A stretch of 48,371 nucleotides of DNA from a virus. The stretch is taken from positions 1 to 48,371 of the IMG/VR virus record IMGVR_UViG_3300035698_014916. One strand, 5' to 3'. Shown piece after piece: positions 4,651 through 48,185 of this stretch. Positions within the stretch are counted from its first letter, which is position 1. Each line of letters begins with the position of its first letter. The notes beneath the pieces were generated by a model. That model worked only from the letters and a program-made list of their open reading frames with translations, was not told the origin of the DNA and made no database searches. The position numbers were made by a program, and so were the translations under genes.

Positions 4651-6108
4651 ATGAATCCAGATATGCTTTTTAGTAATGACAATTTTCTTGCTGATACCGA
4701 TTTGATAGACAAATTAACAAAGACGTTGACAGCAGGATATGGGTACGCAGGCGCACCAACTGCTTTGGCAGGTGGTGGAGCATTGCAAGTAGAGTCTCTT
4801 GATTCTACGTTGCGTGCAGTAACATGGGATTATCGTAATTTAAAATGTTGGCCTATTATTCCTAAAGATAAAGCGTTTAATACAGTTGAGGAATATAATA
4901 GACAATTGAGTTATGGTGAGCAACAAGATGGTGGTTTTTTCGATGCAGAGGCAGGTGTTTTACCGGCTGCTCATGATGCCAATTTTCAAAGAGAAATTCA
5001 AAGAGTCAGGTATATGGGAACAACCAGACAGGTTTCCCATCCAATGACTTTAGTACGGACTGCACATGCTCCGGCAATGGCATTACAAATTAAAGCTGGT
5101 ACAATGTGGGTTTTGGAGCAAATGGAAAGACAGCTTTTTGATGCTAGTGGACATTTTGAAGATACAGCAACTGGTAATTTTACAGGCAATATAGCGGCTT
5201 TACCAATTGGTGGATTAAAATATAATGGTATAGAGCAACAGGTTAGATTTGGTGATACAGATCCTAATGCTCAGTATACAGGTTGGGACGGTTATAATGC
5301 AGCAATTACAGTAGTGAAAGATATGGCGGGTGCTGTTCCAGATGAAGATGATATGACTGATTTCGCGTGGATGCAATCAGAGAATTTTGGTACACCGACA
5401 CATTGCTTTTTTGACTTAAAAGCAATTGCTGATATTAGTAGAACAATGTTACCAAAAGAACGAGTTGTTCCATCTGGTCAAGAGGGTCGTGGTGGTTTTA
5501 TAATGACAGAATTTTTGGCTGCAACTGGTGTATTTAAGATGGTTGGGTCAAAGTTTTTAAGTCCTAAGAGAGGGCCAAGAACAGCGGCTGCAACAGGTGC
5601 TCCGCTAACTCCTGCTGGAACTGGATTAGGCGTAGAAGGTGATGCAACTTCGGTATTACCAGCTGGCAATCATTATTATAGAGTATCTTCTCTTAATAAT
5701 ATTGGGGAATCATTGGCAGAAGCAGAAGTTGGACCACAGGCATCAATAGCAGGACAAAGAGTTGTAGTTACGATTGCAGCAGGTGTAGCAGGTGGAACAC
5801 ATTATGCAGTGTATGAATCAACGACAACTGGTGCTGGTTGGGAATTTATTGGGTATGTTGCTGATAGTACAGGTAATGGTGGTGGTGCAGTATTTAGAGA
5901 TGCTGGCAGACGTGATAGGGGTTTGAGTCATGCATATTTATTGCAGTTTGATTCAACAAACGTCGTATGGCGTCAATTGGCTCCATTAATGAAGATGGAT
6001 CTTGCAATAACGTCACCAACATATCGATGGATGCAATTATTATATGGCACACCGATTATTTTCACTCCAAAACATAATGTAATAATGGATAATATAGGTA
6101 GAGCATAA
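4651..6108 (+). CDS. Major capsid protein with Ig/FN3-like insertion
   Basis: This 485-residue protein is probably HK97-fold. The N-terminal region has G-Y-G-Y-A...L-Q-V-E-S-L-D-S-T-L, then P-A-F/K-A-F-N-T-V-E-E-Y-N-R, an acidic E-A-G stretch and R-Y-M-G-T-T-R-Q-V-S-H-P-M-T-L-V-R. I recognise this arrangement from large-phage major capsid proteins. Residues about 308-418 form an insertion. It has P-A-G-N-H-Y-Y-R-V-S-S-L-N...G-E-S-L-A-E and H-Y-A-V-Y-E-S-T...G-W-E-F-I-G-Y-V-A-D, the strand pattern of a fibronectin-III/Ig-like fold. The capsid core resumes after it at L-L-Q-F-D. Such domains usually project from the capsid surface. A very strong GGAGGG site precedes the ATG, and a terminator follows the gene, consistent with high expression. 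Confidence 0.85.
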   Translation: MNPDMLFSNDNFLADTDLIDKLTKTLTAGYGYAGAPTALAGGGALQVESLDSTLRAVTWDYRNLKCWPIIPKDKAFNTVEEYNRQLSYGEQQDGGFFDAEAGVLPAAHDANFQREIQRVRYMGTTRQVSHPMTLVRTAHAPAMALQIKAGTMWVLEQMERQLFDASGHFEDTATGNFTGNIAALPIGGLKYNGIEQQVRFGDTDPNAQYTGWDGYNAAITVVKDMAGAVPDEDDMTDFAWMQSENFGTPTHCFFDLKAIADISRTMLPKERVVPSGQEGRGGFIMTEFLAATGVFKMVGSKFLSPKRGPRTAAATGAPLTPAGTGLGVEGDATSVLPAGNHYYRVSSLNNIGESLAEAEVGPQASIAGQRVVVTIAAGVAGGTHYAVYESTTTGAGWEFIGYVADSTGNGGGAVFRDAGRRDRGLSHAYLLQFDSTNVVWRQLAPLMKMDLAITSPTYRWMQLLYGTPIIFTPKHNVIMDNIGRA

Positions 6109-6218: not shown

Positions 6219-7820
6219 ATGAAGTCTAAAAAATGTATTAAGTGTAGCAAAATATTTGTTGGTAGAACTAATAGTCCTTATTGTAGTTTAGATTGTAAAT
6301 ATCCAGAGCATGAATGTTTATATCCTAATTGCAATAATTTAATTATAAGACTTAAATCTAAATATTGTTCTATAGATTGTAGGAATAAACATATTGGACT
6401 ATTAAGCAGAGAAAAGAATCGAGAGGCACAAAATAGACCAGAGGTCAGGCTTAAAAAATCTATTAGTATGAAGAAAGTTTTTTCTGACCCAATAATTGTT
6501 CTTAGGCATAAAGAGTCTATTCAAAAAACATATAAAATGGGAAGACAGGTTTGGAATAAGGGTAAGACAAAAGAGGTTAATGGAAAAATTAGATTAAGTT
6601 CTCAAAAGACATCCATAGGTATTAAGAAATTATGGAATAATGGATTTTATAAAGAAAGTATAAAATCTGGTAAATTTAAAAAATCTAAAGCAACAATTGA
6701 AAAAATTAAAAAAAGCAAAGAGTTGAATATATTTAAGTTTATTAAGACGAAATATGGAGTATCTCATTTAGATGATGAAAAGGCTAAAGAAGAGATAAAG
6801 AAAAAAATTGAGTATGAATTTAGTAAAGAAGATTATAAAGTAAATATTGATGGTTATATTAATAGTAAAGAGTTTATTTCGTATATTTGTCCAAGAGGTC
6901 ATAAAGGCAAAACTACTTTAAATTATTGGAGAAATGGATTTAGATGCAGACAATGTGGACATAATTTGTCTTACAACGAAAATGAGATTTATGAATATTG
7001 TTTGTCAAAAAAATTAGAGTGTTATCAGGGGTATAGACCAAGTTGGCTAAAAGACAAAGAAATAGATATTTATATCCATTCAAAGAAATTAGCAATAGAG
7101 TATTGTGGGTTATATTGGCATAGTGATTTATATAAAACATTAAATTATCATAAGGATAAATACTTATGTTGTTTAAAAAATGGCATTAATTTATTAACTA
7201 TTTTTAGTGACGAATGGGGGACTAAAAAGTCTCTTCTTTGTAAGATGATAGATTATAAATTAAATGTTTTAAAAGCTATTAAGATAAGAGGGAGTAAATG
7301 CGAGATAAGTGAAGTTCCTATAGTGGTTCAAAAAGAATTTTTAAATCAATACCATATTAGTGGATATACACCAAGCAAATATTGTTGGGGATTATATTAT
7401 TGTTCTATTCTAGTTTCGTTAATTTCTTTTAGAAAACCTTTTATTAGGAATTTAGAGAATACTATTGAGATCTCTAGGTTTGCTAATAATTATGATTACA
7501 TTGTTCATGGTGGGTTTACTAAATTATTATCATATTCTTTACAATTATTGAAAAATAGATATGGCAAGATATTAACTTATTCAGATTGTCGATTTGGTAA
7601 TGGCAATGTTTATATGCAAAATAATTTTAAATTTATTAAACATACAAAACCTAATTATTACCTTACTAATGGTAAGATAAGAGAGTCTAGGCTAAAACAT
7701 AAAAAATCGGATAAATTATTATATTTGGGAAATACAGAGAGAGAGCAGACAGTCAATCTAGGGTTTAATAGAATTTATGATTGTGGTCATAATAAATGGG
7801 AAATTACTGATTTTTGTTAA
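6219..7820 (+). CDS. Free-standing Vsr-like (EDxHD) homing endonuclease
   Basis: This is a 533-residue protein. The N-terminus has two four-Cys clusters (C6/C9/C22/C26 and C33/C38/C50/C54), probably zinc-binding DNA contacts. A NUMOD3-like basic repeat follows (V-W-N-K-G-K-T near 115), then a third zinc element C-x3-H...C-x2-C near 225-250. The catalytic region at 281-303 reads E-I-D-I-Y-I...L-A-I-E-Y-C-G-L-Y-W-H-S-D, followed by Y-H-x-D-K...G-I-N-L-L-T-I-F-S-D-E-W. This is the hallmark of the Vsr/EDxHD homing endonuclease family found in phages and split-intein loci. It would cut a capsid-neck junction lacking the gene. The gene is a cargo insertion between the capsid terminator and connector genes. 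No ribosome binding site is visible before the ATG, unlike its neighbours. Family: confident; target: unknown. Confidence 0.85.
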   Translation: MKSKKCIKCSKIFVGRTNSPYCSLDCKYPEHECLYPNCNNLIIRLKSKYCSIDCRNKHIGLLSREKNREAQNRPEVRLKKSISMKKVFSDPIIVLRHKESIQKTYKMGRQVWNKGKTKEVNGKIRLSSQKTSIGIKKLWNNGFYKESIKSGKFKKSKATIEKIKKSKELNIFKFIKTKYGVSHLDDEKAKEEIKKKIEYEFSKEDYKVNIDGYINSKEFISYICPRGHKGKTTLNYWRNGFRCRQCGHNLSYNENEIYEYCLSKKLECYQGYRPSWLKDKEIDIYIHSKKLAIEYCGLYWHSDLYKTLNYHKDKYLCCLKNGINLLTIFSDEWGTKKSLLCKMIDYKLNVLKAIKIRGSKCEISEVPIVVQKEFLNQYHISGYTPSKYCWGLYYCSILVSLISFRKPFIRNLENTIEISRFANNYDYIVHGGFTKLLSYSLQLLKNRYGKILTYSDCRFGNGNVYMQNNFKFIKHTKPNYYLTNGKIRESRLKHKKSDKLLYLGNTEREQTVNLGFNRIYDCGHNKWEITDFC

Positions 7821-36020: not shown

Positions 36021-36488
36021 ATGGCTAGTAATTATGATTATAAAGTTTTAAGTAATAGTCAAATAAAACTATTAGATATGTATACACCGTGGGCATATAA
36101 AGTAAGATTATCAGAATTACTAGATGAAGCATTATCGGGTGAGCGTTTAGGGATATTTGATTATATAACTGTGATTTATGATTTAATAGTAAATCAAAAT
36201 TTTTATTTAGGTGGGAATGCTTATTTAGACGGGTGGTTATTTGTGGGCACTGGATATGGCTATGGGGGGTATGGTGTACAAATAAGTCCAGATGGTAATA
36301 TGACAGTAGCAGGATATATAGATGCAACAGCAGGCGGTATAAGAATTCGTGAAGAAGTAATTCCATCTTCAACAAGTTTAGGAATTATAGGCGACACTTG
36401 TTATGGTCAAGATGGTGGTATTTGGTATCAATATCAATGTGTGGATACGAATTTATGGGGGAGAGTTCCATTAAATATAGCTTTTTAA
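36021..36488 (+). CDS. Short fibre-like protein sharing an N-terminal module
   Basis: This is a 155-residue protein. Residues 10-40 (L-S-N-S-Q-I-K-L-L-D-M-Y-T-P...L-S-E-L-L-D-E-A-L-S-G) match the N-terminus of the 263-residue protein at 2614, suggesting both dock to the same site. The rest is Gly/Tyr-rich and beta (Y-G-Y-G-G-Y-G-V-Q-I-S-P-D-G-N-M near 82), with a compact C-terminal domain having W-Y-Q-Y-Q-C-V-D. A small receptor-binding or decoration protein is plausible. TAAGGAG precedes the ATG. Confidence 0.55.
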   Translation: MASNYDYKVLSNSQIKLLDMYTPWAYKVRLSELLDEALSGERLGIFDYITVIYDLIVNQNFYLGGNAYLDGWLFVGTGYGYGGYGVQISPDGNMTVAGYIDATAGGIRIREEVIPSSTSLGIIGDTCYGQDGGIWYQYQCVDTNLWGRVPLNIAF

Positions 36489-36508: not shown

Positions 36509-37630
36509 ATGAAAATTGGGTTGGTAAGTACCTTTAATTGTTCGTGCGGAATAGCAACATACAGTGAGCATTTAGTTGAACAATATGCAGAAAACGAAGT
36601 TGTAATTTTTGGTAATTATTTTGAATCAATGACAGACACTAAAAGTTGTTTAAAACATCCTATTATAAGATGTTGGTCGAAAGATGTAAATTGCGATTAT
36701 AAGGAATTAACTCAAGAAATAATTAAAAGCAAAGTTCGATGTGTACATTTCCAACATGAATTTGGTTTGTTCCAGAATAATCAAGCATTTTTTGAAATGT
36801 TAAAAACAATAAAATCTCATGATATCGGTGTAATTATAACTTTACATACGACATATATTGATAATGCTTTTAATCGAAATATTTTAAGTTGTGAACCTTA
36901 TATTGATGTGTTTATAGTTCACCATGAAAAGTTTAAAGAAGATTTTGGAATTCCAAAGAAGACAGTAGTTTTGCCACATGCATCTGTAATGCGTATACCT
37001 AACAATAAACAAGAATCAAGAAAGCAATTATCTATTCCTGATGATAATATTGTTTGCTTAACTTTGGGATTCATTACTCCGACAAAAGGAGCGATGGATA
37101 ATATCATTGCTGTTACTCGATTGCAGCATGAATTTAAAAATAAAATCATGTTATTGATAGTTGGATATCCAATTGTATATAGGAAAAATTATAGTAATTT
37201 AGAGTATTGTTTAAAATTATTTAAGCGAGTAAATGCAATAGATGCTTTTGATAGAATAAAAATTATTCCTAATTATATTGAAGAATCAGAACTGGATATG
37301 TATGCCGGAGCAGCTGATGTAGTTATTGAAAATTATTATGACACACAGAATTCTATATCTGGCATGAGTCATCTTGTAATGAGTTATGGCTTGCCTTCTA
37401 TATCTTCTAGATCTAGAATTTTATCTGATTTAGACGAAACAAGAAGTGTTAAGTTTAACATTGGTGATGGAGAAGATATGACCAATCAATTAAGAAAATT
37501 ATTGAAGGGTAATAATTTAAGGGCTCAATTATCAGCTAATTGTTTGGAGTATTCAAAATTAACTTCTTGGGCTAAAATAGCGAAACAAACTTGGGAATAT
37601 TATAAGATTTTTGATCGAGGAGGTGCTTAA
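36509..37630 (+). CDS. GT-B glycosyltransferase, GT4-like
   Basis: This is a 373-residue protein. It begins K-I-G-L-V-S-T-F-N-C-S-C-G-I-A-T-Y-S, a nucleotide-binding start typical of GT4. It has H-F-Q-H-E-F-G near 91, T-L-H-T-T near 112 and V-V-L-P-H-A near 149. The donor-site half has L-G-F-I-T-P-T-K-G-A near 183 and an A-D-V-V-I-E-N...S-Y-G-L-P pattern with an S-G-M-S-H-L-V-M loop near 275-300. It would transfer a sugar from a nucleotide donor. It opens the modification island 20 bases after a fibre-type gene, with AAGGAG. The acceptor cannot be read from sequence. Confidence 0.8.
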   Translation: MKIGLVSTFNCSCGIATYSEHLVEQYAENEVVIFGNYFESMTDTKSCLKHPIIRCWSKDVNCDYKELTQEIIKSKVRCVHFQHEFGLFQNNQAFFEMLKTIKSHDIGVIITLHTTYIDNAFNRNILSCEPYIDVFIVHHEKFKEDFGIPKKTVVLPHASVMRIPNNKQESRKQLSIPDDNIVCLTLGFITPTKGAMDNIIAVTRLQHEFKNKIMLLIVGYPIVYRKNYSNLEYCLKLFKRVNAIDAFDRIKIIPNYIEESELDMYAGAADVVIENYYDTQNSISGMSHLVMSYGLPSISSRSRILSDLDETRSVKFNIGDGEDMTNQLRKLLKGNNLRAQLSANCLEYSKLTSWAKIAKQTWEYYKIFDRGGA

Positions 37631-38673
37631 TGAAAGGCAATCAGCCAGTAATTACAATTTGTGGTTTTTATGGATCTGGTAATAGCGGTGATGAAGCTAT
37701 GTTAAGGACATTTGTTTATCAAATAAGAAAACGTATTCCAAATTGTGTTTTTTATGTAGCTGCTAATAAATTTGGGTCTTGGAAGACAAACGATTTATAT
37801 TATATTTCAGGCGTGGATAGAACAAAATTAAAGATATCTGACATGTTTATTTTAGGTGGTGGGGATTTAAGTGTAGGATTTGGCTGGAACTTACTTCCAT
37901 TTGCAAAAGTTTGTGATTGCAAGATAGTCATGGCTAGTGTGAGTATTAATAAAACGTGGTTAAAAAAATCTATTAACGATTGTGTGTTTTATAATTTACA
38001 ATTATTTGATAAAATTTTCGTAAGAGATATGGATTCTTATGAAAATTTAAAAAAGTTAGGTGTAAAATCTAAAGCAACTACAGATGTTGCAATTGAGTTA
38101 TTGATTAATGATAATTTAGATTTTTATAAAAAAAATAAGCACGTCACGTTATGTGTAAGAGAGGTAGCAGGCCATGACAATAAAGATATGATAAACGATG
38201 CAACATATGTGATTAATTATATGCTTGATTGTGGATTTTCAATAAGTTTACTTCCTCTGTGTCCAGCCGATAGAATTATTGCTGAGCAACTAACTGAAAA
38301 TAATTTTGAAGACGTTCAGATCGTTTATAGTACAGAGCCAGAACATCATAAATATATTATTTCAAAATCTAACTATCTTGTCTCTTTGGGTAGATTGCAT
38401 CCTCTTATTTACGCAACTGGCATTCCTACGCCTATGATTGGCATGACATATCCGTCAGTTGAAGAATATCACAAGATAAGAGCTTGGATGAAATATGTTA
38501 ATATGGAAAAATATTGTATAGAACATGAAGATGTTATTAAAGATTTTTCAAATAAATGGCATAAATTGCGTTCTAATCAATCAAAGATTTTGTTAGATTT
38601 AGAGACTCAGAGAAGAAAATTATTTGATTTAAATCAAAAACAATTTGATGAAATTGCAGGATTAATAACTTAA
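37630..38673 (+). CDS. Polysaccharide pyruvyl transferase family protein
   Basis: This 347-residue protein is coupled to the GT4-like gene (TAATG). It has G-F-Y-G-S-G-N-S-G-D-E-A-M-L at 12-25 and I-L-G-G-G-D-L near 75. A-S-V-S-I-N-K, V-R-D-M-D-S-Y-E-N-L near 133, D-V-A-I-E-L near 152 and S-L-G-R-L-H-P-L near 256 follow; together these are the family signature (PF04230, CsaB-like). Such enzymes add a pyruvate ketal, from PEP, to sugars of wall polymers or exopolysaccharide, giving an acidic group. Its C-terminus L-L-D-L-E-T-Q-R-R-K resembles the tail motif of the GT2-like paralogues nearby. A phage copy is unusual. Confidence 0.8.
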   Translation: MKGNQPVITICGFYGSGNSGDEAMLRTFVYQIRKRIPNCVFYVAANKFGSWKTNDLYYISGVDRTKLKISDMFILGGGDLSVGFGWNLLPFAKVCDCKIVMASVSINKTWLKKSINDCVFYNLQLFDKIFVRDMDSYENLKKLGVKSKATTDVAIELLINDNLDFYKKNKHVTLCVREVAGHDNKDMINDATYVINYMLDCGFSISLLPLCPADRIIAEQLTENNFEDVQIVYSTEPEHHKYIISKSNYLVSLGRLHPLIYATGIPTPMIGMTYPSVEEYHKIRAWMKYVNMEKYCIEHEDVIKDFSNKWHKLRSNQSKILLDLETQRRKLFDLNQKQFDEIAGLIT

Positions 38674-38687
38674 AAGGAGAAAATTTT

Positions 38688-39275
38688 ATGATAATTTTAC
38701 CGGCAAAAGAAGGTCCGCCAGAATATTATGATAAAGCATTTAACGGAATAACGTATCCGAATTTTTGTCATCATTATATATGGGCAATAAATTCTTTGAT
38801 TACTTATATACAAGGAAAACTCTATGTTAAAGTTCCACCATTAAAATTTCCATTTTTAGATATTGGTTGTGGAATGGGAAGATTAAGTAGTGTTGCTTAT
38901 TTTGGATACAATATCTTAATTGATGGAATAGATTTCTCATCATTTGGTATAAATAATGTTAAAGATTATTTAAAACATGCTAAATTTTATTGTGAAGATG
39001 TTTGGAAGTTTGATAAATACAATGATTATAGTGTATTTATAGCGACTGAATTTTTAGAACATGTTAATAAAGATATAGAATTTTTTAGTCTTTTACCGAA
39101 AGGAAGTTTATTTCTATTTACTGTACCGTCGCCCGCGTGGGGAGATACGCATCATCTACGATATTTTGAGTCTATAGGAGATGTAGTTGATAGATATAGT
39201 GATGTTTTGGATTTTGTAGAATGTAAAATTGTTGGTCCTGGTCCAGCTTTTGGTGGAATAGGAGTAGTCAAATAA
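38688..39275 (+). CDS. Class I SAM-dependent methyltransferase
   Basis: This is a 195-residue protein. F-L-D-I-G-C-G-M-G-R-L-S near 60 is motif I, I-D-G-I-D-F-S near 80 is motif II, and A-T-E-F-L-E-H-V-N near 122 is the post-motif region typical of small-molecule methyltransferases. T-V-P-S-P-A-W-G-D-T-H-H-L-R-Y-F near 145 resembles sugar or small-molecule methylases in glycan loci. The preceding AAGGAG and its position among glycosyltransferases suggest a sugar O-methylation role; the substrate is inferred. Confidence 0.75.
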   Translation: MIILPAKEGPPEYYDKAFNGITYPNFCHHYIWAINSLITYIQGKLYVKVPPLKFPFLDIGCGMGRLSSVAYFGYNILIDGIDFSSFGINNVKDYLKHAKFYCEDVWKFDKYNDYSVFIATEFLEHVNKDIEFFSLLPKGSLFLFTVPSPAWGDTHHLRYFESIGDVVDRYSDVLDFVECKIVGPGPAFGGIGVVK

Positions 39276-39276
39276 A

Positions 39277-40254
39277 ATGGCAAAAATAACTTTTGGAATG
39301 AATACAGCTCAACAAGATTTTCCGATGGTATATTATCCACAAACGCATATCTTTGAATTTTTACTTCAGTCATTAAGACGACAAACATATAAAGATTTTG
39401 AAGTTGTTATTGCAGATGTTTTTTACAATACAAGATCTAATTATTTTAAAAATCATACAGAAGATTTTGAGATAAAACATGTTCCGATAAAACCTAATAT
39501 TTGGATAAAAAACGGTTGTTGTGCTATTTCTACTACTAAGAACACATTGTTATTACATGCAACAGGAGATGTAATTGTAAGCATGGGTGATTGTGCACAA
39601 TTTGATTCTAAATATTTCGAAAGAATATTAAAATATTTAAAAGATGGATATGATGTAATTAGTAGCTTATATTATATAAGTGAAGGACCACAAATAGTAG
39701 TTCAAGATCAAAGAAATATAGGATATTGTAAAGATATCCATGGCAATGTCGTTATGTCAGCAAAGAACTGGGAAGCTCTTAACGGGTACGATGAAATGTT
39801 TGATGGGGCAAAGGGCGTTGAAGATAGTGATTTAGGATATAGATGCGAAGATATTGGATTAAAAATAAAACTTATAGAACCACGAATAACTTATCAAAAT
39901 CACCATCCTTGTGATTTAGTAAGATATCATAATCAACTAAAATGTCAGGACAGATGGTGGTTTTACGCTAGACATAGAAGTATTTGCGGGATTCCTGCGA
40001 ATATAATCCCAATAACAGACAAAGAATTTAAGTTTATTTCTGAATGCTATAGAACAGAAAAAATGTTAGGCAAATGCAGTATTCATGGAACTCTTTGTAA
40101 ATTCAAGAATAAACAAGAACTCTATAATAAAGGTACAGATCATAAATTATTGCAATTATATAGACATCCGTCATTAATTTTTGACTTAAAAGAACAAAGA
40201 AAAGATGTAGATAAAACATTATTAGATTTAAAGAATAAGGTAGATATAGTATGA
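39277..40254 (+). CDS. GT-A glycosyltransferase, GT2-like (paralogue 1)
   Basis: This is a 325-residue protein. I-T-F-G-M-N-T-A-Q-Q near the start leads to L-R-R-Q-T-Y-K-D-F-E-V-V-I-A-D-V near 35, the usual GT2 opening. The DXD-equivalent position near 101-106 reads S-M-G-D-C, with Gly where paralogues 2 and 3 have Asp. L-N-G-Y-D-E-M-F-D-G-A-K-G-V-E-D-S-D near 168-185 is the conserved acceptor/ED segment. A Cys cluster lies near 258-280, and the C-terminus carries the shared H-P-S-L-I-F-D-L-K-E-Q-R-K. It starts one base after the methyltransferase ends and overlaps the next paralogue by ATGA. Confidence 0.75.
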   Translation: MAKITFGMNTAQQDFPMVYYPQTHIFEFLLQSLRRQTYKDFEVVIADVFYNTRSNYFKNHTEDFEIKHVPIKPNIWIKNGCCAISTTKNTLLLHATGDVIVSMGDCAQFDSKYFERILKYLKDGYDVISSLYYISEGPQIVVQDQRNIGYCKDIHGNVVMSAKNWEALNGYDEMFDGAKGVEDSDLGYRCEDIGLKIKLIEPRITYQNHHPCDLVRYHNQLKCQDRWWFYARHRSICGIPANIIPITDKEFKFISECYRTEKMLGKCSIHGTLCKFKNKQELYNKGTDHKLLQLYRHPSLIFDLKEQRKDVDKTLLDLKNKVDIV

Positions 40255-41258
40255 AAATATCGTTATGTATGAATACAGCTAGAGAAGATTATTCAATGAT
40301 TGGATTTCCTAATATTCATATCTTTGAATATTTAATGAGATCTTTAAGACGACAAACATATAAGAATTTTGAAGTAGTAATTGCAGATGTTTTATATGAT
40401 AAAAGATCTAATTATTTTAAAGAACATCCTGAAGATTTTGAGATTAAACACGTTCCGATAAAACCAAACGTTTGGTTGCCTAGAGAATTTATGGCAATTT
40501 CCACTTGTAAAAACACAGCTATTCTACATGCTACAGGAGACATTATATCGTTTATCGACGATTGTGGAGAAATCAACTCAAAGAATTTTGAGGCAGCAAT
40601 TAAAATGTTAGATGGGAAAGAAAATCTTATCCTTTGTTCTGCTTATAAATTGAGTCTAGGGATAAATATAATTGAATGGGGATTAAAACCAAATAGCAAC
40701 GCAAAGAATTCTAACAATAATATTTGTACATATACTAAAAACATTTTATCTCTTAACGGTTATGATGAGATGTTTGACGGTAGCCGAGGATATGAGGATT
40801 GTGATATAACAATACGGTTTTTAAAAGCGGGATTTGATTTAAAAATGAATCCTTGTGCTTATACTTATCAAAGACATAGTTCAGTCTGTAATAAAAATGC
40901 AAAAATATTTGTGCGATGTTGTAATCTTTGCTGGGATTATGCATCTAAGAGACATAACGATAAAATTTTCAAAGCAAATACAATTCCTATAACAGATGAA
41001 GAATATGCTAACATGGCTGGTATTTGTCATTATAGTGTCACTGAAGAAGATAAAGGAAGATGCAATAGATTTACTATTAAAGATAGCAAATTACATATTA
41101 TTTGCCCTTACGATGGAGATGTAAATAGATCTGAAGACAAAAGATATCGTGATATAATAAAGCTTTATAGACATCCAAGTTTAATTTTTGATTTAGAAAA
41201 GCAAAGAAAAAACATTAACAATGCTATTAAAGAATTAAAACAAATGTGTGATAAATAA
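40251..41258 (+). CDS. GT-A glycosyltransferase, GT2-like (paralogue 2)
   Basis: This 335-residue protein is close to paralogues 1, 3 and 4. It has K-I-S-L-C-M-N-T-A-R at the start, R-R-Q-T-Y-K-N-F-E-V-V-I-A-D, and F-I-D-D-C near 100, which supplies an intact Asp pair. L-N-G-Y-D-E-M-F-D-G-S-R-G-Y-E-D-C-D near 168-185 follows, then three conserved Cys in the C-terminal third and the tail H-P-S-L-I-F-D-L-E-K-Q-R-K. It is coupled to the previous gene by ATGA. Donor and acceptor sugars are unknown. Confidence 0.8.
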   Translation: MKISLCMNTAREDYSMIGFPNIHIFEYLMRSLRRQTYKNFEVVIADVLYDKRSNYFKEHPEDFEIKHVPIKPNVWLPREFMAISTCKNTAILHATGDIISFIDDCGEINSKNFEAAIKMLDGKENLILCSAYKLSLGINIIEWGLKPNSNAKNSNNNICTYTKNILSLNGYDEMFDGSRGYEDCDITIRFLKAGFDLKMNPCAYTYQRHSSVCNKNAKIFVRCCNLCWDYASKRHNDKIFKANTIPITDEEYANMAGICHYSVTEEDKGRCNRFTIKDSKLHIICPYDGDVNRSEDKRYRDIIKLYRHPSLIFDLEKQRKNINNAIKELKQMCDK

Positions 41259-41272
41259 AAGAGGCAATTGTC

Positions 41273-41806
41273 ATGAAAGAAATAATTGAAAAAGATATTT
41301 ATCAAGAAAGATATCAGACACATCAACAAAAGAAAAAAGAATGTTTGCAAGAAATCATAAAAAATAGACATTCTGATAGAGTTTTTTCAAATAAAATTAT
41401 AGAAGACAATACAATAAAGAATTTAATTTTAGATACAAAAAAATGCCCATCGTCTTGCAATCGACAAGCGATTAATTTCTTATCTGTTAATAGTAGAGAT
41501 TATAAAGATTTATTAGGAGGGGTTTTAGTAGGTGGAGTAGGATGGATACATCGAGCAAGTCATATCCTTCTTATTTTTGCTGATCCTTTAGCGTATAAAG
41601 CGAATAACGAAAAAGATTTTATGCCATATTTAGATGCAGGGATTGTAGTACAACAATTGTATTTAACTACAACATCATGGGGATTAAAATGTTGTTTTGT
41701 TAATCCTAATATTCGAGATTTCAATAAAAGACATTTTGAAGAAATTTTTAGTGAACAAATCTTTTGTGGTGCGTTTGCAATCGGATATACTAAAGGAACA
41801 ATATGA
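41273..41806 (+). CDS. Nitroreductase-like flavoprotein
   Basis: This is a 177-residue protein. I-I-K-N-R-H-S-D-R-V-F near 26-36 is the FMN-binding Arg/Ser segment. P-S-S-C-N-R-Q-A-I-N-F follows near 60, then G-W-I-H-R-A-S-H-I-L-L-I-F-A near 90, and D-A-G-I-V-V-Q-Q-L-Y-L-T-T...G-L-K-C-C-F near 122-145. This is the order of the nitroreductase/FMN-dependent family. The family does NAD(P)H-linked reductions, and some members act in cofactor or nucleotide-sugar chemistry. The gene lies inside a run of glycosyltransferases and its stop overlaps the next one (ATGA), so it is probably expressed with them. Substrate unknown. Confidence 0.75.
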   Translation: MKEIIEKDIYQERYQTHQQKKKECLQEIIKNRHSDRVFSNKIIEDNTIKNLILDTKKCPSSCNRQAINFLSVNSRDYKDLLGGVLVGGVGWIHRASHILLIFADPLAYKANNEKDFMPYLDAGIVVQQLYLTTTSWGLKCCFVNPNIRDFNKRHFEEIFSEQIFCGAFAIGYTKGTI

Positions 41807-42816
41807 AGATATCATTATGTATGAATACTGCTAGAGATAACTATTCTATGGATGGATTACCTGATATTCATATTTTTGAATACTTAATGAAATCTTTAAG
41901 AAAACAAACCTATAAAAATTTTGAAGTAATAATTGCAGATACTCTTTATGAAGAAAGATCAGGTTATTTTGAGGAGAACGAAGAAGATTTTGAGATCAAA
42001 CACGTTCCAATAAAACCGAATATTTGGACACCAAGAAAACTTTTTGCGATATCAACTACTAAGAATACATGTTTATTGCATGCTACAGGGGATATAATAA
42101 TTTTTATAGATGATTGTGCAAAAATTCATCCTGAAAATTTTGTAACAGCTATTGAAAAACTATCAAAAGATAAAAAACTTATTCTTTGTTCTGCTTATAG
42201 TGTTCATTTGGGGCAAAAGTTTCTTGGGTGGGGATTAAAACCTGATACTGAGTTAAGATCCCGTTACAATAATAATCTTGCTACACACATAGAAAATTTT
42301 TTGTTAGTTAATGGTTATGATGAAATGTTCGATGGTAGCCGAGGATATGAGGATTGCGATATAATTTTAAGACTTTTAAAAATAGGATTTCATTATGAAA
42401 TAAATTCTAAGCCATATAATTTTCAGCAACATTGTTTACCGAAAAATATAACTGATAAATTTTTCGTAAGATGTTGTAATCTTTGGTGGGATTTAGCTGC
42501 TAAAAGACATACAAAACAAATCTTTAAAGCAAATACAATTTCTATAACAGATGAAGAATATAAATTTATAAGTGATATTTGTTTTTACAATATTATTGAA
42601 GAAGGAGCAAGCAGATGTAGTAAATTTACACATAAAGAGACGGGGTTACATCATTTTTGTCCTTACGATGGAGGCATACAAAGATTTAAGGATGAAAGAT
42701 ATAAAAATCTAATAAAACTTTATAAACATTCAAGTTTGACTTTTGATTTAAAAGAACAAAGAAAAGATATAGAGAAAACATTGTTAGATTTGAAACAGAA
42801 AGTTGAGAAAATATGA
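41803..42816 (+). CDS. GT-A glycosyltransferase, GT2-like (paralogue 3)
   Basis: This 337-residue protein is closest to paralogue 2 across its full length. It has K-I-S-L-C-M-N-T-A-R-D, F-I-D-D-C near 100 with the Asp pair intact, and L-V-N-G-Y-D-E-M-F-D-G-S-R-G-Y-E-D-C-D. The C-terminal Cys triad includes F-C-P-Y-D-G-G, and the tail is H-S-S-L-T-F-D-L-K-E-Q-R-K. It is coupled on both sides by ATGA overlaps to the nitroreductase-like gene and paralogue 4. The role is sugar transfer in the modification island; specificity not readable. Confidence 0.8.
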   Translation: MKISLCMNTARDNYSMDGLPDIHIFEYLMKSLRKQTYKNFEVIIADTLYEERSGYFEENEEDFEIKHVPIKPNIWTPRKLFAISTTKNTCLLHATGDIIIFIDDCAKIHPENFVTAIEKLSKDKKLILCSAYSVHLGQKFLGWGLKPDTELRSRYNNNLATHIENFLLVNGYDEMFDGSRGYEDCDIILRLLKIGFHYEINSKPYNFQQHCLPKNITDKFFVRCCNLWWDLAAKRHTKQIFKANTISITDEEYKFISDICFYNIIEEGASRCSKFTHKETGLHHFCPYDGGIQRFKDERYKNLIKLYKHSSLTFDLKEQRKDIEKTLLDLKQKVEKI

Positions 42817-43793
42817 AGGTATCTGTTTTAATGTTTACAGCCAGAAAAGATTGTCCAATGGTCGGCTATCCAAACATTCATATGTTTGAATACTTGATGG
42901 AATCTTTAAGAAAACAAACGTATAAGAATTTTGAAGTTGTTATTGCAGATGTTATACATGATAGAAGACCAAATTATTTTAAAGAGCATCCTGAAGATTT
43001 TAATGTGATTCATGTTCCAATAAAGCCAAACGTTTGGACACCTAGAGGGTATATAGCAATATCAACAACTAAAAACACTTGCCTATTACATGCTACAGGG
43101 GATGTAGTAATTTTTGTCGGTGATTGTACTTCTTTTGAGCCAACATTGATTGAAATAGGATTAAAGAAGTTAGAAAAAGTTGATTATGTATATACAGCTT
43201 ACGAATCAAGATTAGGGAATAAATTTAATGGATATATGATAAACCCAAATCATGCTTTATCACATGGTCATTCTGGCATAACAGCAAGAATAGAGTTGCT
43301 TGAAGAATTGAATGGATATGATGAAAAATATGACGGAGCGCGTGGATATGAAGATGGTGATATAAGTTTGAGGCTATATGCAAAAAGAGTAACAGTAGAT
43401 TTTAATAGACTTTTAATGACACATCAAATACATGTAGCTTTCCCTACAATCACAAAATATTTGAGATGCGCTTACCCATGGCACGATTATAGAATTAAAA
43501 TCATAAAGCAACAAAAAGATTTTAGAGTTAATAATAAAATAACAGATAAAGAATTTGATGTTTTAGGAAATAAATGTATTTTTATAGGAGAAAATAAAAA
43601 ATGTATGACTTATTCTAAGGCTGTGGGCAAGAATGTTTTTTGTCGACATGATGGAGATATAGATAAAAAAAATGATGAAAAATATAAAGATATCCATTTA
43701 TACAAACATCCCTCATTAGCATTTAATTTGAAAGAACAAAGAAAGAATGTAGATAAGTCTTTAAAAGAATTAAAAGTATTAGTAGAGAAATAG
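42813..43793 (+). CDS. GT-A glycosyltransferase, GT2-like (paralogue 4)
   Basis: This is a 326-residue protein. It shares R-K-Q-T-Y-K-N-F-E-V-V-I-A-D and L-N-G-Y-D-E-K-Y-D-G-A-R-G-Y-E-D-G-D. The DXD-equivalent reads F-V-G-D-C, so one Asp is replaced by Gly as in paralogue 1. Three Cys residues in the C-terminal third and the tail H-P-S-L-A-F-N-L-K-E-Q-R-K are kept. It ends the coupled run; a 54-base gap follows before the next methyltransferase. It may be active with altered metal use, or a non-catalytic partner. Confidence 0.75.
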   Translation: MKVSVLMFTARKDCPMVGYPNIHMFEYLMESLRKQTYKNFEVVIADVIHDRRPNYFKEHPEDFNVIHVPIKPNVWTPRGYIAISTTKNTCLLHATGDVVIFVGDCTSFEPTLIEIGLKKLEKVDYVYTAYESRLGNKFNGYMINPNHALSHGHSGITARIELLEELNGYDEKYDGARGYEDGDISLRLYAKRVTVDFNRLLMTHQIHVAFPTITKYLRCAYPWHDYRIKIIKQQKDFRVNNKITDKEFDVLGNKCIFIGENKKCMTYSKAVGKNVFCRHDGDIDKKNDEKYKDIHLYKHPSLAFNLKEQRKNVDKSLKELKVLVEK

Positions 43794-43847
43794 TTTTTGA
43801 TTTTTTATATTTAATAGGTTATATTTTTTAAAAAATAGGAGAAAATT

Positions 43848-44369
43848 ATGCCGGTATCATATCACGAGCCATACGAAAGATATAAAGAGTGGGTAACAGA
43901 TAATCACCCGAAAACTGTATGGGATATCGGAATGGGATACGGTAATATCGGCAGTTATGCTAAACAAATATACTCTGATATAGAATTAAATGGAGTTGAA
44001 ATTTTTGTTCCATATTTTTCTCATTCACAATCTCAATATAAAAACTACAAAAGAATTATAGTTGCCGACATTAGAGATATAATCAATAAAATGTGGTCTG
44101 TAGACATGATAGTTGCTTTTGATGTTATTGAGCACTTAGAAAGAGAAGAGGGAATTAAAGTTATAGAATATTTAACGTCTATTGTAAACATGGCTTTGCT
44201 TGTTACTGTGCCGATTATAGATTATCCACAGGAGGCTATACATGGAAACGATGCTGAGATACATAGGACGCAATGGAAATTTGAAGAGATGTTAGCATTA
44301 GGCGGGAATCCATTACTTAAAGGGAAAGTAGTAGGTTTATTTGAATTTAAAAAAGGATTAAAAAATTAA
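43848..44369 (+). CDS. Small class I methyltransferase
   Basis: This is a 173-residue protein. V-W-D-I-G-M-G-Y-G-N-I-G near 24-35 is a motif I variant with Met in place of the usual Cys. L-N-G-V-E-I-F near 47 and M-I-V-A-F-D-V-I-E-H-L near 86-96 complete the SAM-binding fold. T-V-P-I-I-D-Y-P-Q-E near 124 fits small-substrate methylases. It has a good AGGAG site after an AT-rich 54-base gap that could hold a promoter. Its stop overlaps the next start (TAATG). Glycan-related substrate inferred from location. Confidence 0.7.
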   Translation: MPVSYHEPYERYKEWVTDNHPKTVWDIGMGYGNIGSYAKQIYSDIELNGVEIFVPYFSHSQSQYKNYKRIIVADIRDIINKMWSVDMIVAFDVIEHLEREEGIKVIEYLTSIVNMALLVTVPIIDYPQEAIHGNDAEIHRTQWKFEEMLALGGNPLLKGKVVGLFEFKKGLKN

Positions 44370-45382
44370 TGGACTATATAACCAAAAAAATTAGTATTAT
44401 ATATATAACAGCAAGAGAAGACTTTCCGCAGATCGGTTGTCCCAACCTTCATCAATTTGATGTGTTTTTGGATTCTGTCGCAAGACAACGGTGGGCAAAA
44501 GAACGTCCTGAAGATTTTGAAGTTGTTATAGTTGATGTTTTGAAAAATAAAGGAGTTCAAGGCTCAGAAGTAAAGTATTTAAAAAGAGATTATGATTTTA
44601 ATAAATACAATTATAAAATAAAGCATATTACTCCACATGATAATTGGTGGTTAGATCATAATTATTCTTGTTATTGTGGTTTTCAAAATTCTGGAGTTAT
44701 AGCAGCCAATGGTGAATTGTTAATATTTTTTGACGATTCTTCAGAAATTATAGGTAATAATTTTTTAGAAATTCATTGGGATTGGTATAAAGAAAAAGGT
44801 AAAGATAGAGTTTTCCCACATTCTATCCACGAATATTATAAAAGGGGAAAGCCACTTATTGCTTCTAATAAAATACTGAGAGAACCTTCTTATGATGCAT
44901 TAATAAAAACAAATAAAATTTATTCTGTTATAGACGTATTTGGCGCAGGTGGTTATTTTTCTCTAAGTTTAGAGGTGCTATTAAAACTAAATGGTTTCAA
45001 TGAATTATTTGACGGAGCAAAAGGGATTGAAGATGGTGATTTGCAATATCGTGCTGGTCGAATTGGTTGTAGGTCTTTAGTAGATATTAGATTGCGAGTT
45101 GTTGAGAATAGTCATGCACCAGTTGTTTTCCACGCATTAACTGGATCTTTCAGAAATAATGTTCCAATTGTAAAAATTACTAAACAAAGAGGTCCAAGTT
45201 TTTTTGAAGCTAATAGAAAAGGTGTTACCCAAGAAGAATACGACCAAATTTTAACTTGGAATAAAGCAATAAATCCAGATTTTAAAGAGACAGAATTATG
45301 TCGTAGAACATTAACTCATCCGCCTATTTTTGATTTAAAACAATTAAGAAAAAGGTATCATGAAATTAATAGAAAGAAATAA
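44369..45382 (+). CDS. Divergent GT-A glycosyltransferase, GT2-like
   Basis: This is a 337-residue protein. I-I-Y-I-T-A-R-E-D-F near the start, F-E-V-V-I-V-D-V near 50, L-L-I-F-F-D-D-S-S-E near 112 (intact Asp pair) and L-N-G-F-N-E-L-F-D-G-A-K-G-I-E-D-G-D near 205-222 place it in the same family as the four paralogues. It is clearly more distant and lacks their Cys triad. The C-terminus H-P-P-I-F-D-L-K-Q-L-R-K retains a version of the shared tail. It overlaps the following methyltransferase by 23 bases. Confidence 0.75.
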   Translation: MDYITKKISIIYITAREDFPQIGCPNLHQFDVFLDSVARQRWAKERPEDFEVVIVDVLKNKGVQGSEVKYLKRDYDFNKYNYKIKHITPHDNWWLDHNYSCYCGFQNSGVIAANGELLIFFDDSSEIIGNNFLEIHWDWYKEKGKDRVFPHSIHEYYKRGKPLIASNKILREPSYDALIKTNKIYSVIDVFGAGGYFSLSLEVLLKLNGFNELFDGAKGIEDGDLQYRAGRIGCRSLVDIRLRVVENSHAPVVFHALTGSFRNNVPIVKITKQRGPSFFEANRKGVTQEEYDQILTWNKAINPDFKETELCRRTLTHPPIFDLKQLRKRYHEINRKK

Positions 45383-45956
45383 AGGAATTAAAGAACGAAT
45401 TTATATATCTAAAGACATATTAGAATTAATTGAAAGTCAGTTGTCTTTAGAAGCTCATATTCAAAGATATGCTTTTGTTCGGCAGTACGCTCATGGGATT
45501 GTTTGCGATTGTGCATGCGGGTGCGGGTATGGAACTTATATGTTGTCGAAAAATCCTGATGTTAAATTAGTTGTTGGGATAGATAATTCTGAAAAAGCAA
45601 TTAAATATGCAGAATCTAATTATTCTACAGATAAAAGTTGTTTTGTTCATTGTAACGAAATAAAAGAATTTACATCGAAAAATAATATTGACCAATTAAT
45701 TTCTCTTGAAACTATAGAACACTTAAAAAATCCTATAGATTTGGTTGATATGTCTGTAAAAAATAATATCAAACAATTGATTATTTCATTTCCAACTAAA
45801 AAATCAAGTCATTACAATAGATTTCATTATCATGATTTTTCTTATACTGATATTGAAGAATTAATTGGTTATTTTTATAATATAAAAGATTTTTTTGAAT
45901 ATAAAAGAGAAGTCGGATTTATATTTGCTCAAAAAAATATTAAAAAGGAGAACTAA
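45360..45956 (+). CDS. Class I methyltransferase
   Basis: This is a 198-residue protein. C-D-C-A-C-G-C-G-Y-G-T near 49-59 is a Cys-rich motif I. V-V-G-I-D-N-S-E-K-A near 71 is motif II, and I-S-L-E-T-I-E-H-L-K near 113 is the acidic post motif. The sequence K-D-F-F-E-Y-K-R-E-V near the end is helical. It starts inside the preceding glycosyltransferase gene with AAAGG upstream. The substrate is unknown. Confidence 0.75.
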   Translation: MKLIERNKGIKERIYISKDILELIESQLSLEAHIQRYAFVRQYAHGIVCDCACGCGYGTYMLSKNPDVKLVVGIDNSEKAIKYAESNYSTDKSCFVHCNEIKEFTSKNNIDQLISLETIEHLKNPIDLVDMSVKNNIKQLIISFPTKKSSHYNRFHYHDFSYTDIEELIGYFYNIKDFFEYKREVGFIFAQKNIKKEN

Positions 45957-45957
45957 A

Positions 45958-46689
45958 ATGACAAGAGAAAATATGAAAAATTTCACACAAGATTATTATG
46001 ATAAGGATTATTTTGTAACTCCAGAAGGAAAAAAATATAAGTCTCAACAAGGAGACATTAAAGGTTGGAGCTATGCTAATGATGCTGGAGAATTTTTAGG
46101 TTGTGAGCCTATTGCTAAAGCTTGGAAAAAAATATTTAACCCAAAAACATTGTTAGATACAGGAGCAGGTCGAGGTACTTTTGTGTCTTATGCTAGAGAC
46201 CAAGGAATTGAAGCAGTAGGATTCGATTACTCAAGATGGGCAGTATCAGAGGAAGGCAGATATTATCGATGCGAAAAAGATTGGTTAAAATGGGGAGATA
46301 TAACAAAACCTTGGGAATATGGAACCGAATCATACGATTTAGTAACTTGTTTAGATTTAATGGAACATATTTATGAGCCAGATGTAGAAAAAGTATTATC
46401 TGAAATGTATAGAGTGGCTAAAAAATACGTATTTTTATTAATAGCAACTATTCCAAACAACGAAGGGATTATTTTAAAAAGAGGCGAGTCAATCCCAGAA
46501 GAATGGGAAGGCTGCTGCGTTGCTGGACATGTCATAATCAAACGGAAAAAATGGTGGATGGAAGAGAAATTTAGTAAATTTAATTGGATAGAAAGGAAAG
46601 ATTTATTATTAGATTTTTGTGATTTTGTTGACGAAGATGTATTGTCAAATTGGGTACAAAACACAATGCTAATCATGGAGAAAAAATAA
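45958..46689 (+). CDS. Class I methyltransferase, longer type
   Basis: I choose the ATG at 45958 with AAAGGAG upstream; a frame from 45895 would run through the previous gene and has no site. The 243-residue product has L-L-D-T-G-A-G-R-G-T-F-V near 66, V-G-F-D-Y-S-R-W-A near 88 and L-V-T-C-L-D-L-M-E-H-I near 125. It also has two Cys in E-G-C-C-V-A-G-H and a Trp-rich C-terminus. The N-terminal Y-Y-D-K-D-Y-F is common in methyltransferases of surface-glycan loci. The stop overlaps the next start. Confidence 0.75.
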   Translation: MTRENMKNFTQDYYDKDYFVTPEGKKYKSQQGDIKGWSYANDAGEFLGCEPIAKAWKKIFNPKTLLDTGAGRGTFVSYARDQGIEAVGFDYSRWAVSEEGRYYRCEKDWLKWGDITKPWEYGTESYDLVTCLDLMEHIYEPDVEKVLSEMYRVAKKYVFLLIATIPNNEGIILKRGESIPEEWEGCCVAGHVIIKRKKWWMEEKFSKFNWIERKDLLLDFCDFVDEDVLSNWVQNTMLIMEKK

Positions 46690-47657
46690 TGGTGAATTTA
46701 ATAGATAATAAAGTAAAAATTCAATTTTATAGGAGATTTGATCATTCTTCTTTAGCTCACGTCGGAAGAAAAATCAAAGAAAATTTAGATGGATATAACT
46801 TTGAAATTTCTGATTTTGGAATAGGAGTGACGATAGATAATACGTTTTTAGATCATAAAGCTGACATCGGTATTATGTACGGTATGATGCAAGACGTTGT
46901 GTATCTAGTAAATCACAGAGTAAGAATTGCGGGTTTAGTGTGTGAAAAAGATTTAACAGAAGATGAAATTTATAGATTAAAACAAGTTAAATTAGATGAA
47001 ATTTGGATTCCAAGTTTATTTTGTGCTGAAAAATTTCAAAAAGCTGGTTTCGGAGATAAAATTGTTTTAGTTCCGCACGGCATAGATCCTGTACATATTA
47101 TAAATAAAAAATATGATAGTCCTAAAATATTAATGGCATTTAATTCTTATTTACAACTTGGGTTTCCAATACGAAGAAAAGGGATTTTTGAGACGTTAAA
47201 AGCTATACAAGAAATAAAAGATATCGAATTAATTTTAAGGACAACACATAGAAAATATTACAATACTTACAATTTAGCTAAAGTTAGATTTATAGAAGAT
47301 AGAGTAAAAAATATTGATGAGGTTTATTCTCAATGTAATGGTGTTTTATGCCCAAGCAGTGCTGAAGGATTTGGATTAATCGGTTTAGAAGCGTTAGCAA
47401 GAGGAATTCCTTTGATAAGCACAATAACAGGAAACGATTATCTTGAAGAAAATGTGTCTTATATACATATTGATTTACCAGTTACTAAAGATAAGATAAA
47501 AGATGCTATAAACAAACTATATAATAATTACGATAGCTATAAAAAAAATGCTATAGAACAAGTTCCTACAATTTTAAAAAAATGGAGTTGGTTGAAGGCG
47601 CGAGATATGGTAAAAAGGAGGTTAGATAAAATAATTGTTGATTTATTCAACAATTAG
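46689..47657 (+). CDS. GT-B glycosyltransferase, GT4-like
   Basis: I choose the ATG at 46689, which overlaps the TAA of the upstream gene and has GGAG upstream. The 322-residue product has V-L-V-P-H-G-I-D-P-V near 132 and the donor-binding G-V-L-C-P-S-S-A-E-G-F-G-L-I-G-L-E-A-L-A-R-G near 218-240, the E-x7-E pattern of GT4 enzymes. The N-terminal half is shorter than usual. It probably acts in the same pathway as the upstream glycosyltransferases. Confidence 0.82.
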   Translation: MVNLIDNKVKIQFYRRFDHSSLAHVGRKIKENLDGYNFEISDFGIGVTIDNTFLDHKADIGIMYGMMQDVVYLVNHRVRIAGLVCEKDLTEDEIYRLKQVKLDEIWIPSLFCAEKFQKAGFGDKIVLVPHGIDPVHIINKKYDSPKILMAFNSYLQLGFPIRRKGIFETLKAIQEIKDIELILRTTHRKYYNTYNLAKVRFIEDRVKNIDEVYSQCNGVLCPSSAEGFGLIGLEALARGIPLISTITGNDYLEENVSYIHIDLPVTKDKIKDAINKLYNNYDSYKKNAIEQVPTILKKWSWLKARDMVKRRLDKIIVDLFNN

Positions 47658-47662
47658 AAATT

Positions 47663-47980
47663 ATGAAGTTAAAAATAATAGATAATTTTTTATCTCATCT
47701 AATTTGTAAAATTTTTTGTACAGACGGTTTATTTATGTATCCGTTTCTTTTTTGCAAAAAAAATGTATTAAGTTTGGATTTCTTATCTTATTATATCTCT
47801 TATGTTCGACATTATAAAAAAAGCAGATTAAAAGTTTGTTTTTCTTTTTTATATAGTTTTATTTTTAAAAAACCGAACGGATTTAAAATCCAAGCAACAG
47901 CCGAAAAAAGTAAGTATAGACAATCGGCTATGGAGATTTATGCACAACACATCAAAAAAAAATCAAAGCAGAAGCTATAA
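47663..47980 (+). CDS. Small basic hydrophobic protein, unknown
   Basis: This 105-residue protein has hydrophobic, aromatic stretches (V-L-S-L-D-F-L-S-Y-Y-I-S-Y near 35-47, C-F-S-F-L-Y-S-F-I-F near 59-68) and a Lys-rich C-terminus. Membrane association is possible but no clean TM helix is evident. No family is recognised. There is no strong ribosome site before the ATG, and the 5-base gap suggests coupling to the glycosyltransferase. Confidence 0.4.
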   Translation: MKLKIIDNFLSHLICKIFCTDGLFMYPFLFCKKNVLSLDFLSYYISYVRHYKKSRLKVCFSFLYSFIFKKPNGFKIQATAEKSKYRQSAMEIYAQHIKKKSKQKL

Positions 47981-48185
47981 ATTGGCATTATGGAGTTTTG
48001 TTTTTTCTATTTTTTTTATATTTTTAGGCATTCTTAATGAGATTCACATCGGTAGTTTTCATTTAAAATTTAAAATGATAGATAGTAGTGTTGTGTTCTT
48101 ATTGTCTTCTAGCTTTGGTTTGTACGGAGTTAGACGATACACAGAAGCTAAATTTCAACCTAAAGAACAATCTTCAGATCAATAA
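47940..48185 (+). CDS. Small two-TM membrane protein, holin-like topology
   Basis: This 81-residue protein overlaps the previous gene by 41 bases in another frame, with GGAG 5 bases before the ATG. TM1 is at about 15-35 (L-A-L-W-S-F-V-F-S-I-F-F-I-F-L-G-I) and TM2 at about 47-63 (S-S-V-V-F-L-L-S-S-S-F-G-L-Y-G). A charged tail E-A-K-F-Q-P-K-E-Q follows. Size and topology are compatible with a holin or another small phage membrane protein; no family proof. It ends the operon. Confidence 0.5.
   Translation: MHNTSKKNQSRSYKLALWSFVFSIFFIFLGILNEIHIGSFHLKFKMIDSSVVFLLSSSFGLYGVRRYTEAKFQPKEQSSDQ

Follow-up and report, generated by a model that had tools for sequence, protein, structure and literature searches.

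What would a tailed phage do with thirteen clustered enzymes for building and decorating a glycan? The question is raised by a 48,371-base linear virus record (IMG/VR record IMGVR_UViG_3300035698_014916; herein referred to as the window, meaning the whole stretch analyzed), in which an island of thirteen genes (36509–47657, herein g1–g13) follows directly behind the gene for a 155-aa short fibre protein (36021..36488, + strand) whose C-terminal domain is fibre-like in alignments. A preliminary description had proposed a methylated and possibly pyruvylated glycan, placed either on virion proteins (the fibres or the Ig-like capsid domain) or on the host surface. We hypothesize that the thirteen genes form a late-expressed, soluble assembly line for a glycan, which would be placed on a virion protein in the host cytoplasm; the likeliest recipient would be the 155-aa fibre or a fibre or baseplate partner of it. 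On gene content and synteny we give this reading about an even chance. The simple claim that some virion protein is the target seems to us just as evenly balanced; that the 155-aa fibre, a candidate acceptor or partner, is itself the acceptor is a more tentative proposal, and probably less likely than its opposite.

The preliminary description called for a search for related islands, and alignment-based scans of IMG/VR uncovered a small family; single-protein scans of IMG/VR with the pyruvyl transferase or the major capsid protein (MCP) gave no match, and alignment queries were needed. Three relatives, G001 (64 kb), G002 (109 kb) and G004 (89 kb, nearly the same phage as G002), carry the island in nearly the order of the window, with amino-acid identities mostly of 42–63% and down to 35% for the paralogues of glycosyltransferase (GT) family GT2. 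G001 lacks g3 and g9; in G002 the order of the GT2 and methyltransferase genes is slightly different and there is a five-gene insert (encoding a sulfotransferase, an APS kinase, a 74-aa open reading frame (ORF), a DUF5662 protein and a cytidylyltransferase-like protein). The closest relative, L117 (~71–86% identical for most shared proteins), has the arrangement of the window up to the point where its contig stops, inside g2, and the island of L131 is closed by a g13 orthologue. A second island type, found in L135/G016 and L184, comprises a fibre homologue, a different GT4, a GDP-mannose 4,6-dehydratase, methyltransferases, two sulfotransferases and a g13 orthologue. The ends of the island (the fibre and g13) are fixed, and the interior is replaceable by the GDP-mannose dehydratase and sulfotransferases. 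Because it is kept as a block in other phages, the island is not a chance assembly.

The fibre family lies immediately 5′ of the island in all six lineages that cover that end (the window, L117, G001, G002/G004, L135/G016 and L184). In G001, G002 and G004 the block of fibre and island precedes the capsid genes, before the MCP, whereas in the window and L117 it lies behind the tail fibres, in the window between the genes w34396 and w47940. These two stand side by side in G002 and in the island-less G017. With two genomic sites for the block, the fibre and the island have therefore changed place together, as a unit. Circular permutation was rejected as the cause of the gene order in the window, since these two genes are neighbours in G002 and G017 yet flank the island here; a search for recombination repeats at the island ends gave only short, chance-like ones. 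G017, a close relative of G016 on a contig that covers both sites, has neither the island nor a fibre homologue, nor any GT4 or sulfotransferase match; indeed, of the proteins of the window, the fibre and g13 are the only two that G016 has and G017 lacks. A link between the island and a virion fibre is thus supported in three ways, all read from gene arrangement: the 155-aa fibre is syntenic with the island, has relocated with it and is missing where it is missing.

The virion target put forward in the preliminary description accordingly fares differently for its two candidates, the fibre being backed by these three observations and the capsid Ig-like domain not being singled out. At 4651–6108 the window encodes an MCP whose sequence reads as containing an Ig/FN3-like insert, which is conserved in the relatives, including G017; as the same insert occurs in a phage without the island, we do not favour it as the specific acceptor.

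A second line of evidence concerns the apparent solubility of the pathway. No convincing membrane helix was found in the island proteins, a hydropathy scan of the ORFs of G002 returned no polytopic protein (no ORF with two helices), and no flippase, polymerase or phosphoglycosyltransferase (lipid-carrier transferase) occurs among the Pfam matches of the island, which hence lacks the membrane flippase, polymerase and initiating phosphoglycosyltransferase of a Wzx/Wzy-type cluster. Its GT genes lie inside a virion gene module, between the fibre and tail or capsid genes, as expected for virion glycosylation. Soluble enzymes without export parts fit stepwise cytoplasmic protein glycosylation better than polysaccharide export, and the link of the island to the fibre gene favours a virion target.

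The phage itself is, judged by protein similarity, an SPO1-like (Herelleviridae-like) myovirus, a relative of the large Bacillus phage SPO1, of which the window is a fragment: it encodes a related MCP (~28–31% identical to those of SPO1-like Bacillus phages and likewise to those of Bacteroides DAC phages) and contractile-tail genes, the latter indicated by baseplate PHROGs. At the DNA level the window has no similarity to any of 50,697 phage records. Baseplate and fibre-like proteins are encoded 5′ of the island, followed by the 155-aa fibre protein. Several of the relatives come from IMG metagenome 3300035698, a co-assembly from Ace Lake, Antarctica (PMC8542988).

The gene content originally described is borne out by Pfam, with all thirteen genes present on the + strand: two GT4 and five GT2 glycosyltransferases (four clear and one divergent), one pyruvyl transferase, four methyltransferases (two of which, g3 and g9, score under the curated cut-offs) and one nitroreductase. 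The island opens with the GT4 enzyme g1 (36509..37630; PF00534, Glycos_transf_1, 3.5e-6; orthologues 50–71% identical in G001, G002 and L117) and the pyruvyl transferase g2 (37630..38673; PF04230, PS_pyruv_trans, 2.3e-22), which is CsaB-like and by family would use phosphoenolpyruvate (PEP). Four GT2 enzymes, g4 (39277..40254; PF00535, Glycos_transf_2, 4.2e-6), g5 (40251..41258; 5.5e-6), g7 (41803..42816; 1.1e-7) and g8 (42813..43793; 1.3e-5), are assigned by PF00535, with g4, g5 and g8 also placed by a tree; g5 and g7 are 60% identical, and g7 yields a GT-A fold model (pLDDT 83). The fifth, g10 (44369..45382), is recognized by alignment (45–46% identical to its G001 and G002 orthologues); its Pfam match is a weak one to Glyco_transf_7C only and its match to EPS_EpsD (1.9e-7) is below cut-off, and we class it as GT2 because it is 25–29% identical to the other GT2 proteins of the island. 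The class-I methyltransferases are g3 (38688..39275; PF13489, 7.8e-6; an orthologue in G002 and none in G001), g9 (43848..44369; PF13649, 2e-4; 60% identical in G002), g11 (45360..45956; PF13847, 2.4e-8; 61–63% identical in G001 and G002) and g12 (45958..46689; PF13489, 1e-15). A nitroreductase-family flavoprotein, g6 (41273..41806; PF00881, 2.6e-13; 58–59% identical in G001 and G002), stands among the GT2 genes, and the second GT4 enzyme, g13 (46689..47657; PF00534, 1.2e-11), is the conserved 3′ bookend, its orthologue closing the island in G001, G002, L131, L135 and L184. A match of g13 to GT4-conflict (PF20706) was set aside as generic GT4 similarity. The statement that the genes are nearly all overlap-coupled was too strong, as 7 of the 12 junctions overlap (by 1–23 nt, taking g12/g13 as TAATG with the g13 start most likely at the ATG at 46689), the remainder being four gaps of 1–14 nt and one of 54 nt. 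Sequences resembling promoters or terminators occur no more often than in shuffles.

In tblastn searches of the 50,697 phage records g7 and g10 had no match and g1 and g2 one distant match each, so that a g2-type pyruvyl transferase is nearly absent from that collection; the G002 sulfotransferase had no match there either. Transferases ~28% identical to g13 occur in Streptomyces phages; these were not retained as a parallel case, since in phage Faust, the only one examined, the gene does not adjoin virion genes. L121, an unrelated 183-kb GC-rich phage, carries g1-like and GT2-like genes, several GT genes and a radical-SAM protein, and encodes a 612-aa protein (L121:11112-12950) in which a pyruvyl transferase is followed by a methyltransferase domain similar to g12; this fusion in an unrelated phage supports one pathway.

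Membership of g2 in PS_pyruv_trans is secure (80.7 bits against a curated cut-off of 25.3), whereas its score of 101 bits against the CsaB equivalog TIGR03609 lies below the 213-bit cut-off and places it outside that equivalog. The residues invariant in the g2 family (R132, R177, R255-x-H257 and K282) resemble the PEP-binding set of CsaB (R148, R207, R306-x-H308 and K328; PMC10435577), a comparison by pattern, with CsaB itself outside the alignment.

The GT2 paralogues may reflect a chain whose acceptors change. In the tree, g10 groups with one orthologue per relative and g5, g7 and g8 cluster together, apart from the G001 and G002 proteins, so that the five GT2 genes of the window, against three in G001 and G002, reflect duplication. 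Among g4, g5, g7 and g8, residues 1–104 are 62–77% identical and residues 105–169 only 17–42%; the rate of nonsynonymous substitution (dN) is below the synonymous rate (dS) and is 2–4 times higher in residues 105–300 than in residues 1–104. The nucleotide-sugar site of GT-A enzymes lies in the N-terminal half, and conserved N-terminal with diverged C-terminal halves would thus fit constant donors and changing acceptors. Recent gene conversion of the N-termini is opposed by a dS of ~1, which leaves room for older events. Foldseek matches of the g7 model (K4CP, a chondroitin synthase; heparosan synthase; GalNAc-T; TarP) do not fix the sugar.

Taken as a pathway, these genes would work as follows. 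A GT4, most plausibly g13, would attach the first sugar, g13 being the candidate initiating transferase because it is kept with the fibre in both island types. The chain would be extended by g1 and the GT2 enzymes from host nucleotide sugars, the GT2 paralogues probably adding similar donors at successive positions. The methyltransferases would O-methylate it, the pyruvyl transferase would add an acidic pyruvate ketal from PEP and the nitroreductase g6 may contribute a redox step. The finished glycan would alter adsorption, shielding or particle stability. We infer the late expression, the virion acceptor, the order of the enzymes, the identities of the sugars and the biological role from the genes and their arrangement. 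Of the possible readings of these genes, a defined, methylated and pyruvylated glycan remains the strongest, the more so given the conservation of the island and the sulfation genes of the relatives; the target of the glycan is not thereby proved.

Several considerations weigh against the fibre-centred reading. The co-absence of fibre and island was observed on a single contig spanning both sites, that of G017; the remote relatives of the fibre, which match mainly its C-terminal domain, mostly have no GT gene nearby; and adjacency and co-relocation are no proof that the fibre is the acceptor. An AlphaFold monomer of the 155-aa fibre was poor (pLDDT 50) and unusable. Late expression is deduced from position and strand alone, the glycan is known here from its genes, and soluble GTs could equally use host lipid-linked precursors, as CsaB does.

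This last point leads to the main rival, which the sequence tests cannot separate from a virion target: that a host surface glycan is remodelled during infection, in superinfection exclusion or for the release of progeny from receptors. The soluble GTs, pyruvyl transferase and methyltransferases would then act on lipid-linked precursors at the inner face of the membrane, with export left to host machinery. CsaB, which g2 resembles, pyruvylates an undecaprenyl-linked precursor (PMC10435577), g4 and g10 are weakly similar to Eps transferases, and GT-rich regions by the tail fibres of pelagimyophages have been interpreted as modifying host lipopolysaccharide (LPS) (PMC7029224). However, the island has no membrane component and the G002 scan found no polytopic ORF to supply one, a site among virion genes suggests expression too late for exclusion, and co-relocation and co-absence with the fibre are not predicted by this model. 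We give a host-surface target a chance of about one in four.

It is improbable that the glycan hypermodifies the bases of the phage DNA, as virus-encoded DNA glycosyltransferases do. The lineage probably does have hypermodified DNA, because G002 and G004 have genes for an amino acid:DNA transferase (PF18724), accompanied by those for a radical-SAM protein and an FkbM methyltransferase, and G017 lacks both this transferase and the island on its sequenced part; the transferase genes, however, lie ~40 kb from the island, near replication genes, and the island is placed among virion genes and travels together with the fibre. The pyruvyl transferase and sulfotransferases are moreover polysaccharide-type enzymes, and no Tet/JBP match was found, although the control was equally silent. 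The records other than G002 and G004, which are fragments (the window being without the replication region), yielded no amino acid:DNA transferase. In G002 the radical-SAM, FkbM and amino acid:DNA transferase genes stand in a row (L105:13082-16432, equal to G002:73082-76432), a probable DNA hypermodification cluster.

Still less probable is that the product is a glycoside left free or attached to a small molecule, with no coat made on the virion, the host wall or the DNA. BshA/MshA-type GT4 enzymes, which are soluble, use small acceptors, and g1 and g13 match such models weakly, but these matches are generic GT4 similarity far below the cut-offs, a series of seven GTs suits a chain better, and the fibre link would go unexplained. 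Least probable of all is that the island was acquired horizontally from a bacterial surface-polysaccharide cluster and is a neutral fragment with no phage function, for although most of the enzyme families are bacterial polysaccharide families, the frames stay open across deep divergence in several phages, the close GT2 relatives are viral with bacterial matches distant (~25–30%), and dN is below dS in the GT2 paralogues.

How does a virion-directed island compare with known systems? The gtrABC O-antigen modification of temperate phages, like the island, uses a phage-encoded GT2, but gtr systems depend on membrane proteins (the flippase GtrA, GtrB and the polytopic GtrC), and the island has neither a GtrA flippase nor a polytopic protein such as GtrC. 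Mycobacteriophage virion glycosylation, the subject of Freeman et al. in 2023, reportedly involves few GT genes, and the glycosylation genes of chlorovirus PBCV-1 are said not to form one operon beside a fibre. Like the proposed island, PBCV-1 uses mostly virus-encoded machinery for a cytoplasmic, multi-step chain on a virion protein, although it is a eukaryotic algal virus whose target is the major capsid protein (PMC7019647). Phage-encoded GTs are likewise thought to decorate virion proteins in mycobacteriophages, where the targets reported are capsid and tail tube (as cited in PMC12619734), whereas here seven GTs with decorating enzymes stand by a fibre and are known from genes. The assertion that phage glycosylation usually involves one or a few genes was incomplete, as pelagimyophages, which are aquatic myophages too, have a host recognition cluster where, much as in the island, several glycosyltransferases and tail fibres share an extensive variable region (PMC7029224). 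Those phages are T4-like and their clusters GT8-dominated and described as LPS modification, whereas the present phage is SPO1-like and its island has fixed ends (fibre and g13) and a pyruvyl transferase or sulfotransferases. CsaB shares with g2 the PF04230 family and TIGR03609 similarity, and the residues of g2 resemble in pattern the PEP-binding R-x-H set of CsaB (PMC10435577); g2 lacks any S-layer or SLH anchoring context. We found no publication that describes pyruvyl transferases or sulfotransferases of phages in connection with fibres.

It was thus already known that phages have GT clusters by their tail fibres, that phage enzymes glycosylate virions and that chloroviruses make glycans of their own; new here are a conserved, relocatable block of fibre and island, its fixed ends and swappable interior, and its pyruvyl and sulfate chemistry. 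It is conceivable, though we would not expect it, that the block is a portable module, with the acceptor fibre at one end and the initiating GT4 at the other both fixed and with chain-building and acidic decorating enzymes (pyruvyl, sulfate and methyl) that can be swapped in between. With similar reserve, such a module might be the phage counterpart of O-antigen clusters and give a lineage the means to vary the glycan that covers its own adhesion structures. If a virion target is correct, there are tailed phages with complete, exchangeable pathways for acidic, methylated particle glycans tied to one fibre gene, and these phages have a second way, beyond changes in fibre sequence, to alter adsorption or shielding. 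The fibre and the island would then offer a concrete pair of acceptor and enzyme for testing, and they bear on the role of GT clusters in aquatic phages, the assignment of those of pelagimyophages to host LPS being itself by inference.

Other features of these genomes deserve mention. An Rfam search of the window gave no match. Directly 3′ of the major capsid gene lies a homing/HNH endonuclease-like gene (window 6219–7820; phrog_3339, 5e-66), the counterpart position holding a weakly similar 544-aa protein in G001 and nothing in G002. Behind the island, window 47663–48185 contains two short ORFs with a 41-nt overlap, the second of which is w47940 and has a membrane helix. G002 encodes a GroEL-like chaperonin (L105:8254-10026, equal to G002:68254-70029; PF00118, 4e-54) with a homologue in G017. 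L028, a 6.6-kb contig in an "archaeon" metagenome-assembled genome and possibly a virus contig, has g12-, g10- and g9-like genes with a sulfatase-like protein and a 283-aa protein without a Pfam match (L028:1938-6085). In the unrelated phage L006, GT-like proteins, a DegT-type aminotransferase and an epimerase-like protein follow the capsid gene (L006:7612-14819), which reads as a different kind of glycan island. In the low-GC phages L122–L126, a 764–768-aa protein matching g1 heads an extended series of genes that are much alike in size and lie behind large ORFs of structural appearance, and in a GC-rich phage (L014:8870-11020) a g9-like methyltransferase and a GT2 ending in an "HPPIFDM"-type tail share a single open frame.

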